The notes below the pieces were generated by a model. The model saw nothing but the letters and a program-made list of their open reading frames with translations. It was not told the DNA's origin and ran no database searches. This document shows positions 27,837-31,586 of a stretch of 43,225 bases of DNA, piece by piece. Made by a program: the position numbers and the translations under genes. Numbering within the stretch: position 1 is the stretch's first letter; each line of letters opens with the position of its first letter. The stretch comes from a virus: positions 1-43,225 of the IMG/VR virus record IMGVR_UViG_3300031576_000117; one strand, written 5' to 3'.

Positions 27837-28349
27837 ATGCCATTTATCTTGTCTGATATTTTCATTGGCAATTACCGCGTTTCACAAGCGTTTGGGAATA
27901 ATCCTAAATATATTGGTGGTAAATACTACCCTAACGGATACTATTCACAATTTAAAATTAACGGCATCCCTCAACGAGGTCACGAAGGAACCGATTGGGC
28001 AACACCATCTGATGTGATAATCACTGCTCCTTTTAATGGCATAATTCTTCGACAAGATTTTCAAATAGATTACAAGGGTTATGGTAGAGTAGTTGTTGTA
28101 TGGAATCCGGCTCAAAAGTGCGCAGTCTGGTTTTGCCATTTATCAGTAGAAAATATAAATAGTGGAGATCGAGTTATAAAAGGGCAACCATTGGGTAAAA
28201 CTGGCGCAACTGGTAATACTTTCGGAGCGCACCTCCACTTTAATTTATGTGCAACAGATCAATGGGGAAACAGAATTAACAGGCTGAATGGTTACGGAGG
28301 ATTTATTAACTGTATTGACAGAAATAACGTAACATGGATACTAACTTAG
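27837..28349 (+). CDS. M23-family peptidase (endolysin candidate)
   Basis: This 170-aa protein carries a single LytM/M23 zinc endopeptidase domain: H49 and D53 in GHEGTDW, H101 in CHLS and H132/H134 in AHLHF. M23 enzymes cut peptide bridges in peptidoglycan. There is no signal peptide or cell-wall-binding domain, so release would need a holin, consistent with the membrane proteins on both sides. It overlaps the next gene by 16 bases. Confidence 0.9.
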   Translation: MPFILSDIFIGNYRVSQAFGNNPKYIGGKYYPNGYYSQFKINGIPQRGHEGTDWATPSDVIITAPFNGIILRQDFQIDYKGYGRVVVVWNPAQKCAVWFCHLSVENINSGDRVIKGQPLGKTGATGNTFGAHLHFNLCATDQWGNRINRLNGYGGFINCIDRNNVTWILT

Positions 28350-28906: not shown

Positions 28907-29113
28907 ATGGACGCAATTAAAGAATCTGCAAAATTGATAATCAGACTTGCAATTTTGGCTGGTGTGTCAGCATTTGTCGCTTCGGTGACAGAATCCGTAT
29001 CTAATCTTCCACAGAACCAAGTAACTGTTATTTTAGGCTTTGTTTTAGCAGGAGTTGATAAATGGATTCACGAGAGGAAAGACATACCACTAAAAGGTAT
29101 TATTCCTTTTTAA
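28907..29113 (+). CDS. Holin-like membrane protein
   Basis: This 68-aa protein has two hydrophobic segments: ~9-28 (LIIRLAILAGVSAFVASV) and ~38-52 (VTVILGFVLAGVD). It is preceded by a GGGAGGTGAG Shine-Dalgarno. Size, two-segment topology and adjacency to the M23 peptidase support a holin. It is the last gene before a strong terminator. Confidence 0.7.
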   Translation: MDAIKESAKLIIRLAILAGVSAFVASVTESVSNLPQNQVTVILGFVLAGVDKWIHERKDIPLKGIIPF

Positions 29114-29131
29114 TTTGAAAATAGTGAAGCA

Positions 29132-29218
29132 AGTTCTCTGATTTTGGTGTTTGTCATTTTTCTTAGTTATACTTCTAGTATAGCAGACAACAGCCCTTAC
29201 CGGAGTTCTTGCTTTTTA
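29132..29218 (+). terminator. Rod-like terminator of the late operon
   Basis: AGCAAG at 29132 pairs with CTTGCT near 29208-29213. An inner GTTTGTC/GACAAC helix and a TATAC-TTCTA-GTATA hairpin stack above it. CTTGCT is followed directly by a T run. This long rod ends the structural and lysis transcripts. Confidence 0.65.
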
Positions 29219-29224
29219 TAGGGG

Positions 29225-29255
29225 TTGACTGCTACGAATAAATTTCAAGTATAAT
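29225..29255 (+). promoter_or_regulatory. Promoter of the 36-aa acidic protein
   Basis: TTGACT (29225-29230) and TATAAT (29250-29255) are separated by 19 bases. They are followed by AAAGGAGGTGA at 29267-29277 and the ATG at 29284. The spacer is two bases longer than ideal. Confidence 0.65.
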
Positions 29256-29283
29256 TAAAGCTACGCAAAGGAGGTGATAAACT

Positions 29284-29394
29284 ATGACCTATTTTGATGA
29301 TCCAGACGAAACAAAAACAGACGGAGATGAATCAGATGCAGGTTCAGACGCAGGTGGAGAAACTCCTGCTTCTGATGAAACTCCTGCCGAGTAA
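29284..29394 (+). CDS. 36-aa very acidic protein in its own transcription unit
   Basis: ATG at 29284 follows a perfect AAGGAGGTGA, and the frame runs to TAA at 29392-29394. The product starts MTYFDDPDETKTDGDE. Thirteen of 36 residues are Asp or Glu against one Lys, and the protein is likely disordered. A dedicated promoter and a strong terminator bracket it, which suggests heavy expression. DNA-mimic or anti-defence function is possible, as small acidic phage proteins often block nucleic-acid-binding host factors. That is speculation. Confidence 0.72.
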   Translation: MTYFDDPDETKTDGDESDAGSDAGGETPASDETPAE

Positions 29395-29397
29395 GAA

Positions 29398-29455
29398 AAT
29401 TTAACTTCGTTGAATTGGGGGGAGTTGGTATTGGCAGCAACTCTCCTCTTTTTTT
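29398..29455 (+). terminator. Double hairpin terminator after the acidic gene
   Basis: A first hairpin, AATTTAAC-TTC-GTTGAATT (29398-29416), is followed by a second stem, GAGTTG 29422-29427 with CAACTC 29438-29443, extended by G/C and G/T pairs. Seven Ts lie at 29449-29455. Confidence 0.85.
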
Positions 29456-29548
29456 GTGGTATGAATATAGTGAGGGGTTCGGTCTGTTTCGATTCTGGGG
29501 TATGCGAATATCTCTTTCGAGGCTTCACGAGTCCCTCATTTTAAAGAC

Positions 29549-29577
29549 TTGACATATTAGTTGACATGATTTAATAA
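29549..29577 (+). promoter_or_regulatory. Possible promoter with two TTGACA boxes
   Basis: TTGACA occurs at 29549-29554 and again at 29561-29566. The first pairs with TAATAA at 29572-29577 (17-base spacer). A start near 29583 would put the three following hairpins in the RNA. Confidence 0.4.
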
Positions 29578-29583
29578 TAAATT

Positions 29584-29640
29584 GACAAGTGAAAACTTGT
29601 CCGTCCAACTTTAGGTTGGCACTCCTACGGTAAGAGGAGT
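29584..29640. repeat. Three consecutive inverted repeats
   Basis: GACAAGT-GAAA-ACTTGTC (29584-29601), CCAAC-TTTAG-GTTGG (29605-29619) and ACTCCT-ACGGTAAG-AGGAGT (29621-29640) are perfect stems of 7, 5 and 6 bp. They lie within 57 bases with almost no gap. They may be RNA hairpins or protein-binding dyads. Confidence 0.8.
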
Positions 29641-29645
29641 ATAAT
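29616..29645 (+). promoter_or_regulatory. Promoter overlapping the third inverted repeat
   Basis: TTGGCA (29616-29621), an 18-base spacer and a perfect TATAAT (29640-29645). The ACTCCT/AGGAGT dyad fills the spacer, an ideal position for an operator. The start is predicted near 29652. Confidence 0.5.
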
Positions 29646-29646
29646 A

Positions 29647-29731
29647 GCGGAGAGTAAAAACTACTTTCTCATGGTAAGGTCACTTACCAAAGTATGCTCT
29701 CTGCATCCTTACCAGCAGAAAGTAGTTTTTT
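29647..29731 (+). ncRNA. Candidate RNA switch with mutually exclusive helices
   Basis: AAAAACTACTTTCT (29656-29669) is perfectly complementary to AGAAAGTAGTTTTT (29717-29730), a 14-bp terminator-like stem running into Ts. A competing helix pairs GCGGAGAG (29647-29654) with CTCTCTGC (29697-29704). Within the loop, TGGTAAGG (29672-29679) can pair with CTTACCA (29683-29689) or with CCTTACCA (29707-29714). Such alternatives are the hallmark of attenuators and riboswitches. No known family is recognised. Confidence 0.5.
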
Positions 29732-29732
29732 A

Positions 29733-29885
29733 ATGGAAAATAGTCAGGTTAAAAATCAATCCTTCAAGTCCTACATCAAGATGCGTTTTGACAGACTCCG
29801 CAAATTAGCAAAAGAAAAAAGAGAAGACGAACAGAATCAATTTTTGAAACTCGTGGAAGTAAGCAGCCAGAGCGAGTCTAAATAA
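29733..29885 (+). CDS. Possible 50-aa basic helical protein
   Basis: ATG at 29733 lies immediately after the T run of the putative switch/terminator. The 50-aa product starts MENSQVKNQSFKSYIKMRFD and is basic and helical (RLRKLAKEKREDEQ). There is no Shine-Dalgarno, and the hairpin would occlude the start. An upstream non-ATG start exists at 29694. It could be a switch-controlled gene or a chance frame. Confidence 0.35.
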   Translation: MENSQVKNQSFKSYIKMRFDRLRKLAKEKREDEQNQFLKLVEVSSQSESK

Positions 29886-29890
29886 TTAGT

Positions 29891-29939
29891 GGCGAACTGA
29901 ATACTCAACGCTTACCCCGAAGTGAAAATCGGGGTCGCC
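29891..29939 (+). repeat. Nested stem: GGCGA/TCGCC around CCCCGA/TCGGGG
   Basis: GGCGA (29891-29895) pairs with TCGCC (29935-29939), and CCCCGA (29915-29920) with TCGGGG (29929-29934). The 3' halves are contiguous, so the two stems could stack, leaving a 19-nt side loop. Confidence 0.6.
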
Positions 29940-29986
29940 GGAGTAAAAGATTAAACTAGCTAGTAAAACAAAATATGTGAGAAATC

Positions 29987-30051
29987 GGCTTTTAGAGCTT
30001 TAATAAGAACGTGGTTAAAAAAACACCCTTATTATTCCGAAGTCTAAAGCC
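29987..30051 (+). repeat. 65-base imperfect rod hairpin upstream of the recombination genes
   Basis: GGCTTTTAGA (29987-29996) pairs with TCTAAAGCC (30043-30051), CTT with AAG, TAATAAG (30001-30007) with CTTATTA (30028-30034) and GTG with CAC around an A-rich loop. It ends 20 bases before the ATG at 30072. Confidence 0.65.
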
Positions 30052-30071
30052 TAATTATCGCCAGAGTAATT

Positions 30072-30344
30072 ATGGATAGTTTAAAAAACATAGTTAGTTT
30101 AACTAAGTATAAAAGAAAAGAAAAAAAAACGAACGGCGCAACTTATCGTTGGCAAGACAGGGCAGTTATTGTTTGGCAGAAGTTGGGGCTTACCGGTTCT
30201 CCAAAATCGGGATTTTTTAAAATCTTTCGAGATGATCCACAAAAAGCCGAGCAGTGCTACTCTTTTGTTGTTGATGCTAGTGCTTATGATCCGGAGAAAC
30301 TTTTTTACTGGAAATATAATGATTTAAAGAGAGTTCAAAAATGA
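30072..30344 (+). CDS. Small basic protein opening the recombination operon
   Basis: This 90-aa protein is basic at its N-terminus (KYKRKEKKTNGATYRWQDRAV) and aromatic later (SGFFKIFRD, FYWKYNDLKR). It overlaps the next gene by ATGA. No known motif is visible, though the alpha/beta pattern could suit nucleic-acid binding. No Shine-Dalgarno is seen before the ATG. Confidence 0.7.
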   Translation: MDSLKNIVSLTKYKRKEKKTNGATYRWQDRAVIVWQKLGLTGSPKSGFFKIFRDDPQKAEQCYSFVVDASAYDPEKLFYWKYNDLKRVQK

Positions 30345-30884: not shown

Positions 30885-31586
30885 ATGAGTAATGATAAAG
30901 CAATTGATATAGCAAAACTTCCCTATAAGTCGCGAGAGGCTTATAAATCCCAATTAAAAGAACAGTTAATGGAAGCGATTGGCACGGCACAAGCCGTCAT
31001 GCTTCTACAAAAGACCCCAAAGGGTGAGATACGCAAAAGGTTAATGAATCCACAAAAACCTGCCGGTGCTAATAACCCAGAATTTTCCTATGTTGAACAC
31101 GCTTATGTTTCGGAGCAACTTGATTTAACTTTTTTTATGGATTGGGATTTAATTGTTACTAAAAGCGAGAGGGTTGGAGAAGAAGCATTAGTCGAGGGTT
31201 ATCTTGAGTGCCGGTTTAAAAACAAAACTATTATTAAAAAACATGGTTTTGGCGGGGCAGTTCACCGTAATAATCCCAACATGACTTGGGGGGATACTTT
31301 CAAATCTGCTACCTCTGATCTTCTCAAGAATTGTGCAGCACGAATGGGGATTGCTCGTGATCTTTACAGACACGAAGAAAAAGTCACTGATAAGTTCATA
31401 GAAATAAAAAGTGAACCAAAAGGCGAAGCGCCACAACTTGAGGACGGGTCAAGACCGGCAACAGAAGCACAGCTTCAAACCATAAAATCCCTTGATCCGG
31501 AATTTGACGTAGCAACTTCAAATTTCACAAAACAGGAAGCGGTAAACAGACTTGATGAACTTAGGAAGGAATTGATTAAAAAATAA
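30885..31586 (+). CDS. Rad52/Sak-like single-strand annealing protein
   Basis: This 233-aa protein contains the Rad52-superfamily core: VEHAYVSEQLDLTFFMDWDL (~70-88), VEGYLECRFKNKTIIKKHGFGG (~103-124) and TWGDTFKSATSDLLKNCAARMG (~134-155). These correspond to the strands and helix of the annealing domain. It would anneal complementary single strands during recombination-dependent replication or circularisation. The C-terminal ~60 residues are charged and helical (a likely interaction tail). A Cas4/RecB-like exonuclease lies two genes downstream, a usual partner. Confidence 0.85.
   Translation: MSNDKAIDIAKLPYKSREAYKSQLKEQLMEAIGTAQAVMLLQKTPKGEIRKRLMNPQKPAGANNPEFSYVEHAYVSEQLDLTFFMDWDLIVTKSERVGEEALVEGYLECRFKNKTIIKKHGFGGAVHRNNPNMTWGDTFKSATSDLLKNCAARMGIARDLYRHEEKVTDKFIEIKSEPKGEAPQLEDGSRPATEAQLQTIKSLDPEFDVATSNFTKQEAVNRLDELRKELIKK

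Follow-up and report, generated by a model that had tools for sequence, protein, structure and literature searches.

A conserved RNA element of about 150 nt, with two predicted folds, ahead of differing genes in seven metagenomic phages

Relation to described regulatory leaders

Leaders in which a terminator competes with an antiterminator are already known, and to our knowledge very few systems control phage early genes by RNA only. In the attenuators of amino-acid operons (trp, his), alternative pairing of ordered segments selects the terminator or the antiterminator. The element described here was found in a 43,225-nt stretch of viral DNA (IMG/VR record IMGVR_UViG_3300031576_000117; hereafter the window) and is predicted to use a similar ordered alternative pairing. 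In contrast to the trp and his leaders, no conserved leader peptide was found; when one was sought after hairpin H3, which holds GGAG, frames were possible in some copies only.

In plasmid attenuators of the pT181/pIP501 type, the leader forms either a terminator or an antiterminator, and the kissing of loops can decide between them (PMC4878617). Competing folds and loop kissing are also predicted for the phage element. However, a fully complementary antisense RNA controls the plasmid systems, whereas no antisense gene is evident in the phages; a consensus search for a minus-strand promoter shared by the seven copies found none and gave weak matches in some copies only. Further, in the phages a single molecule carries both the loop and its target, within a repeat of four strands, and the start codon follows the U-tract directly.

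On the leader of satellite phage P4, the CI RNA pairs with the complementary sequences seqA and seqC of the same leader, which leads to termination (PMC4825925), and C4 is a phage antisense RNA (PMC2864571). Complementary repeats on one phage leader are also present in our element. However, the P4 and C4 RNAs are processed immunity RNAs of temperate elements, whereas most of the phages studied here lack lysogeny genes, and the element had no match to the Rfam C4 family. The put RNA of HK022 acts as RNA only; its two neighboring stem-loops are located behind an early promoter of the phage (PMC9378689). The phage element has a similar position, and hairpins spaced by 1 nt are seen in the window, L004, L011, L124 and, roughly, L134, but are doubtful in the other two copies, L012 and L143. 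Unlike the phage element, put has no partner-swap terminator, and the conserved parts of the phage element are explained by internal pairing. A sequence search of 50,697 phage records for put likeness gave no relevant match.

Although the class of mechanism is known, the layout appears to be new, in that partners are swapped among four strands and the start codon sits directly behind the U-tract. The element is apparently an undescribed phage RNA family, which is well defined and for which a function is predicted.

Genome setting of the hairpin-rich stretch

The first and last 127 bases of the window are identical, indicating a circular phage genome of 43,098 bp. A sequence-only reading had drawn attention to dense hairpins at positions 29458–30071, at a switch between gene modules, and both observations were borne out. 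The stretch holds eight perfect inverted-repeat seeds (perfect arms of 8, loop of at most 60), compared with a genome median of 0 and no more than 3 anywhere else. The lowest GC-corrected folding energy of the genome was found in the 600-nt segments at 29101 and 29401, and the folding z-score of region 29540–30085 was −4.1 on either strand. The stretch is the most structured part of this genome. Genes for an M23 peptidase and a holin-like protein lie upstream, on the lysis side, and a gene for an Erf-like protein of the recombination module lies downstream (Table 1), where a CRISPR/Cas-associated (Cas4-like) family was also matched weakly. The best-covering named terminase showed approximately 26% identity.

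The same reading considered the roughly 600 bp as a possible single large non-coding RNA, and this part was not upheld. The stretch consists of three separate structured pieces and a short ORF, and the conserved unit is a 5' leader of only about 150 nt, with a promoter-like site ahead of it and a U-tract and start codon behind. The folding z-score of this element was −5.7 (29585–29740), whereas the ORF that follows is unstructured (29740–29885, z = +1.0). The long hairpin at 29468–29542 is imperfect, sits between the late-side terminator and the putative early promoter, and is outside the conserved element. A further hairpin-rich gap was observed at 29120–29260, in which inverted repeats (AGCAAGTTCTCTG..CGGAGTTCTTGCTTTTT) lie over a strong promoter-like TTGACT-TATAAT pair (29225–29255), followed by a 36-codon, very acidic ORF (29284–29394).

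No relative was found for the second folded stretch of the window, and the segment at the matching position of L004 (2350–2690) was not unusually folded (z = −0.95). Two close relatives, G011 (L143, 2135–2530, plus strand) and G009 (L141, 16060–16480, minus strand), share a structured non-coding RNA of approximately 400 nt downstream of the switch, at the same place as the window's second stretch. Its two copies are 72% identical with 20 double-changed pairs, and it had no Rfam match. This RNA is possibly the better candidate for a large phage non-coding RNA.

Table 1. Features of the hairpin-rich stretch and its surroundings in the window.
Feature	Position	Strand	Basis or remark
M23 peptidase gene	27837–28349		lysis side, upstream of the stretch
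Holin-like gene	28907–29113		lysis side, upstream; identified by eye
Strong intrinsic terminator, GGGGGGAGTTGG..CAACTCTCCTC, T7	29417–29455	+	sequence; ends the upstream small transcript
Long hairpin of ~75 nt, TAGTGAGGGGTTCG..CGAGTCCCTCATTTT	29468–29542	+	folding z = −3.4 (29466–29543)
Sigma70-like promoter, TTGACA-18-AATAAT	29549–29578	+	consensus match, 11/12
RNA element of ~150 nt	29584–29735	+	folding and seven covarying copies
Hairpin H1, GACAAGT-GAAA-ACTTGTC	29584–29601	+	5' end of transcript; not conserved
Hairpin H2, CCAAC-TTTAG-GTTGG	29605–29619	+	sequence different in each copy, paired in most
Hairpin H3, ACTCC-TACGGTAAGA-GGAGT	29621–29640	+	1 nt after H2; stem pairs covary
L3, GGTAAG, core of H3 loop	29629–29634	+	L3·C' paired in 42/42 cells
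A, GCGGAGAG, 5' strand of antiterminator helix	29647–29654	+	8/8 pairs covary
5' arm of terminator stem: B (29656–29672), then C, GGTAAGG (29673–29679)	29656–29679	+	
C', CTTACC, then AAAG	29683–29692	+	RAAG in all copies
A', CTCTCTGC	29697–29704	+	pairs with A
3' arm of terminator stem: C'', CCTTACC (29707–29713), then B' (29714–29730)	29707–29730	+	
U-tract, T6, with ATG (29733) directly behind	29726–29735	+	same in all seven copies, GTG in one
Possible ORF of 50 codons from the ATG of the element	29733–29885	+	no family match; other genes here in other phages
Second folded stretch, with ATAATTAGTGGCGA / TCGCCAGAGTAATTAT as closing arms; directly adjoins the ATG of the 30072 gene	29882–30073	+	z = −3.4 (29880–30076), single genome
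Erf-like annealing protein gene	30885–31586		downstream, recombination module

Seven copies and their covariation

The sole exact match between this region and a related phage was one 24-base string in L004, which lies inside a gap there too. When IMG/VR was scanned with the 18-base core of this string, L004, L011 and L012 were obtained, which have the H3 motif in common; they exhibit the same layout as the window, with unrelated letters between the parts. A scan with downstream parts only (CTTRCC-NAAG, CTTRCY and TTTTTATG) gave two more copies, L124 and L134. Since these two were found by the C'/C''/T-tract pattern, their H3, A and B are independent evidence. A structure-only descriptor, run over approximately 4 Mb (both strands counted), recovered all six known copies and a seventh, L143, with a score of 42.4 against 32.5 for the best match in shuffled sequence. 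The first four copies were obtained through the H3 sequence (the exact match of the window and L004 included H3) and L143 through its helices, and statements about A·A' and B·B' rest on parts that were unused in finding six of the seven copies.

All seven copies share one layout: a promoter-like site (10–11/12), H3, A, B, C, C', RAAG, A', C'', B', at least six U, and a start codon no more than 1 nt behind the U-tract. H2 is usual before H3 but is doubtful in L012 and L143. B and C pair with C'' and B' to form a stem of at least 24 bp with few mismatches, followed by the U-tract, and the A·A' helix (about 8 bp; 7 in L143) is situated between the foot and the loop of this stem. In L012 (2911–2963), the linker between A and B is longer by about 30 nt. 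It contains one additional hairpin and another promoter-like pair (TTGACA..TATAAT), so that separate transcription of the terminator part may also occur in this copy. In the phage of this record (G007, 44.3 kb), none of the 57 ORFs of at least 100 codons has a Shine-Dalgarno-like sequence, unlike in the other six phages; its host may therefore not use such sequences.

Full-element alignment by MAFFT put the B arms out of register. We therefore cut out the helix arms and joined them with constant spacers for the pair counts. With this register set by hand, and the counts to be read accordingly, 96% of 280 cells were paired in A·A', B·B', H3 and C·C'' across the seven copies. Both sides had changed in 29 of the 40 pairs, compared with 14.6 expected by shuffling, and 0 of 500 shuffles reached this number; when the partners were slid by 1–3 columns, pairing fell to 38–48%. 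The antiterminator set was paired in 99% of cells, with changes on both sides in 15 of 25 pairs (0 of 500 shuffles). Segment A differs in each phage and fits its own A', and among 5040 permutations the identity pairing alone reached the observed score; the permutation test of B·B' had the same outcome.

The short strands covary as a group. L3·C' was paired in 42 of 42 cells (41 Watson-Crick), C·C' in 39 and C·C'' in 37, and L3, C, C' and C'' change together (GGTAAG, GGCAAG or GATAAG with CTTACC, CTTGCC or CTTATC). A T-to-C change in the loop of L124 and L134 is matched by A-to-G changes in C' and C'', and all four strands are altered at the same position in L143. We conclude that the element of about 150 nt is real and conserved.

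Searches of Rfam 15 gave no match at the gathering score over the whole window and nothing credible up to E = 10 over the region; across the copies, nothing was detected beyond a tRNA in another part of L143 and chance matches below the threshold. The sequence-only reading, which had recognized no known family, had proposed an undescribed structured RNA as one possibility, to be checked against Rfam and for covariation in relatives; seven covarying copies in different phages without an Rfam match bear this out.

Related terminases are encoded by the phages of the window, L004, L134 and L143, but not by those of L011 and L012, and the record of L124 is absent among the terminase relatives. Comparison of the proteins revealed none common to all seven phages, and some of them share almost none. 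Most other terminase relatives showed no copy of the element; many of those contigs are fragments. There was no convincing copy in the cultured phage records searched, or in plasmid records, which were searched with the window copy only. A looser scan of viral contigs gave 29 matches, of which only the known members were real, and further scans, including genome contigs, gave chance matches. A search for a conserved partner gene among the downstream proteins gave no relative for P0002 and one distant relative for P0001. Another terminase relative, L142, contains on its minus strand (at ~14922) an A-B-A'-B' pseudoknot, with T5 and an ATG that opens a minus-strand ORF. We set this candidate aside: it reached a score of 42.6 only at relaxed thresholds and does not show the L3/C repeat logic. 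It could be a distant cousin or a chance match.

T6 tracts with ATG or GTG at a distance of at most 1 base make up 8.5% of such tracts in these genomes. The combination was present in all seven element copies, five of which had not been selected for it, whereas in two it formed part of the search pattern. The gene that follows is an ORF of 50 codons in the window, 65 in L004, 62 in L011 and about 32 in L143 (read by eye); it encodes a replication-initiator-like protein in L012 and endonuclease/HNH-like proteins in L124 and L134. Of the close relatives G009 and G011, one has an endonuclease and the other does not. A protein frame conserved across the region, which the sequence-only reading had named as evidence against its proposal, was not seen, since the frame that follows the element varies among the phages. 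Since the start codon is kept on the U-tract in all seven copies though the downstream genes differ, it seems to belong to the element, so that translational control is also conceivable. An attenuator acting on transcription only would not require a start codon in this place, and its presence there hints at an additional role in translation.

The proposed attenuator and alternative explanations

On the basis of the conserved pairings, their covariation, the promoter-like sequence, the U-tract, the start codon, and the predicted folding order and energies, we consider that the element is probably a cis-acting transcription attenuator with two folds, located in the 5' leader of an early operon. 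Two features of this class, a promoter upstream and a stem/U-tract terminator in the leader, are present by their sequence form; a third, a conserved competing pairing that is incompatible with the terminator and able to form ahead of it, is indicated by prediction and covariation.

Transcription would start at the promoter-like site, and two mutually exclusive folds would swap partners among four strands, two of the GGTAAG type (L3, C) and two of the CTTACC type (C', C''). In the read-through fold, C·C' would lie inside A·A' and L3 would be able to hold C'' (nested, with L3·C'' outermost), thereby leaving the 3' arm of the terminator without a partner. In the terminator fold, C·C'' and B·B' would form a 24-bp stem followed by U6–8, with L3 free to kiss C', and RNA polymerase would be stopped just ahead of the start codon. 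Judged from this geometry, A·A' and the terminator stem should not both be complete. Because C' and A' are made before C'' and B', the read-through fold would form first and would be the early default; its delay or undoing would turn the early genes off, as a later shut-off. No ligand, protein or antisense RNA was identified for the switch. Since the phages have no protein in common, the candidate causes of a delay are a host factor, polymerase pausing or speed, and leader RNA that acts in trans.

When folding of the growing chain was predicted, A·A' preceded the terminator in seven of seven copies and C·C' preceded A·A' in six, and L3·C'' appeared in four (L011, L124, L134 and L143). The terminator overtook at most about 10 nt from the U-tract or later; for the window and L134, it did not do so ahead of the U-tract. 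Once the chain was complete, the terminator was the optimum in six copies, with a tie in L134. The minimum-energy gap between the folds ranged from 0 to approximately 16 kcal/mol, and this wide variation counts against an attenuator.

More tentatively, and with considerable doubt, we suggest that the element could be a self-contained viral RNA timer of a new class. The leader itself would time the shut-off of early genes, by polymerase speed or by self-pairing in trans via the duplicated GGTAAG/CTTACC strands, would control any gene placed behind it, such as endonuclease or replication genes, through its own start codon, and would move between or persist in phages that otherwise share almost nothing.

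It is unlikely that the element is a translational switch, in which the fold decides whether ribosomes reach the start codon joined to the U-tract, the terminator stem covering the start region and A·A' opening it, with or without transcription termination. In its favor, every copy has the start codon directly behind the U-tract although the genes that follow differ, and no good Shine-Dalgarno sequence is present outside the stem. However, a long stem with U6–8 immediately behind is shaped like an intrinsic terminator, the ribosome-binding sequences are weak and would serve poorly even when open, and the short ORFs have no family match.

Slightly less likely still, the terminated leader of about 150 nt would itself be the product, a small trans-acting RNA with the ORF expressed by leak and L3/C and C'/C'' acting between molecules as in P4 immunity. 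The P4 CI RNA is a precedent (PMC4825925), and here too complementary repeats lie on one transcript. However, a tyrosine integrase is absent from the window and five of the six other phages (only G008 has one), and no serine recombinase or HTH_3 repressor was detected by Pfam in any of these records, which may be fragments. Lysogenic immunity is therefore unlikely, except perhaps in G008.

Improbable in turn is a protein-free, put-like processive antitermination, in which the two 5' hairpins would bind RNA polymerase so that the terminator and later ones are ignored. Two stem-loops 1 nt apart at the 5' end of the early transcript, found in most copies, resemble the putRNA architecture (PMC9378689), and a host target is suggested by their conservation in phages that have hardly any proteins in common. 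However, the H2 sequence is not conserved and the presence of H2 in L012 and L143 is questionable, the phage records searched gave no sequence match to put-bearing phages, the conserved H3 loop is already accounted for by its pairing with C' and C'', and A·A' has no role in the put model.

A replication origin, which the sequence-only reading had also favored, or another DNA-level structure such as a cruciform is very improbable: inverted repeats do lie in a gap beside replication or recombination genes, and base-pair covariation alone would also be compatible with a DNA hairpin, but GC skew is positive throughout the genome without a turn at 29–31 kb, which led us to reject this reading, the layout is directional with a promoter on one side and a U-tract on the other, the helices tolerate G·U (wobble pairs on one strand), and no iterons were seen. 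The replication-initiator-like gene behind the L012 copy places the element near replication genes, with no sign that it is an origin.

The element is defined by covariation in seven metagenomic phages and is small enough for testing in vitro. A single molecule here combines two plus and two minus strands, a layout that would be useful for studies of co-transcriptional folding and for building RNA switches. Further, regulatory RNAs can stay conserved where phage proteins do not, and annotation based on proteins therefore misses such RNAs.
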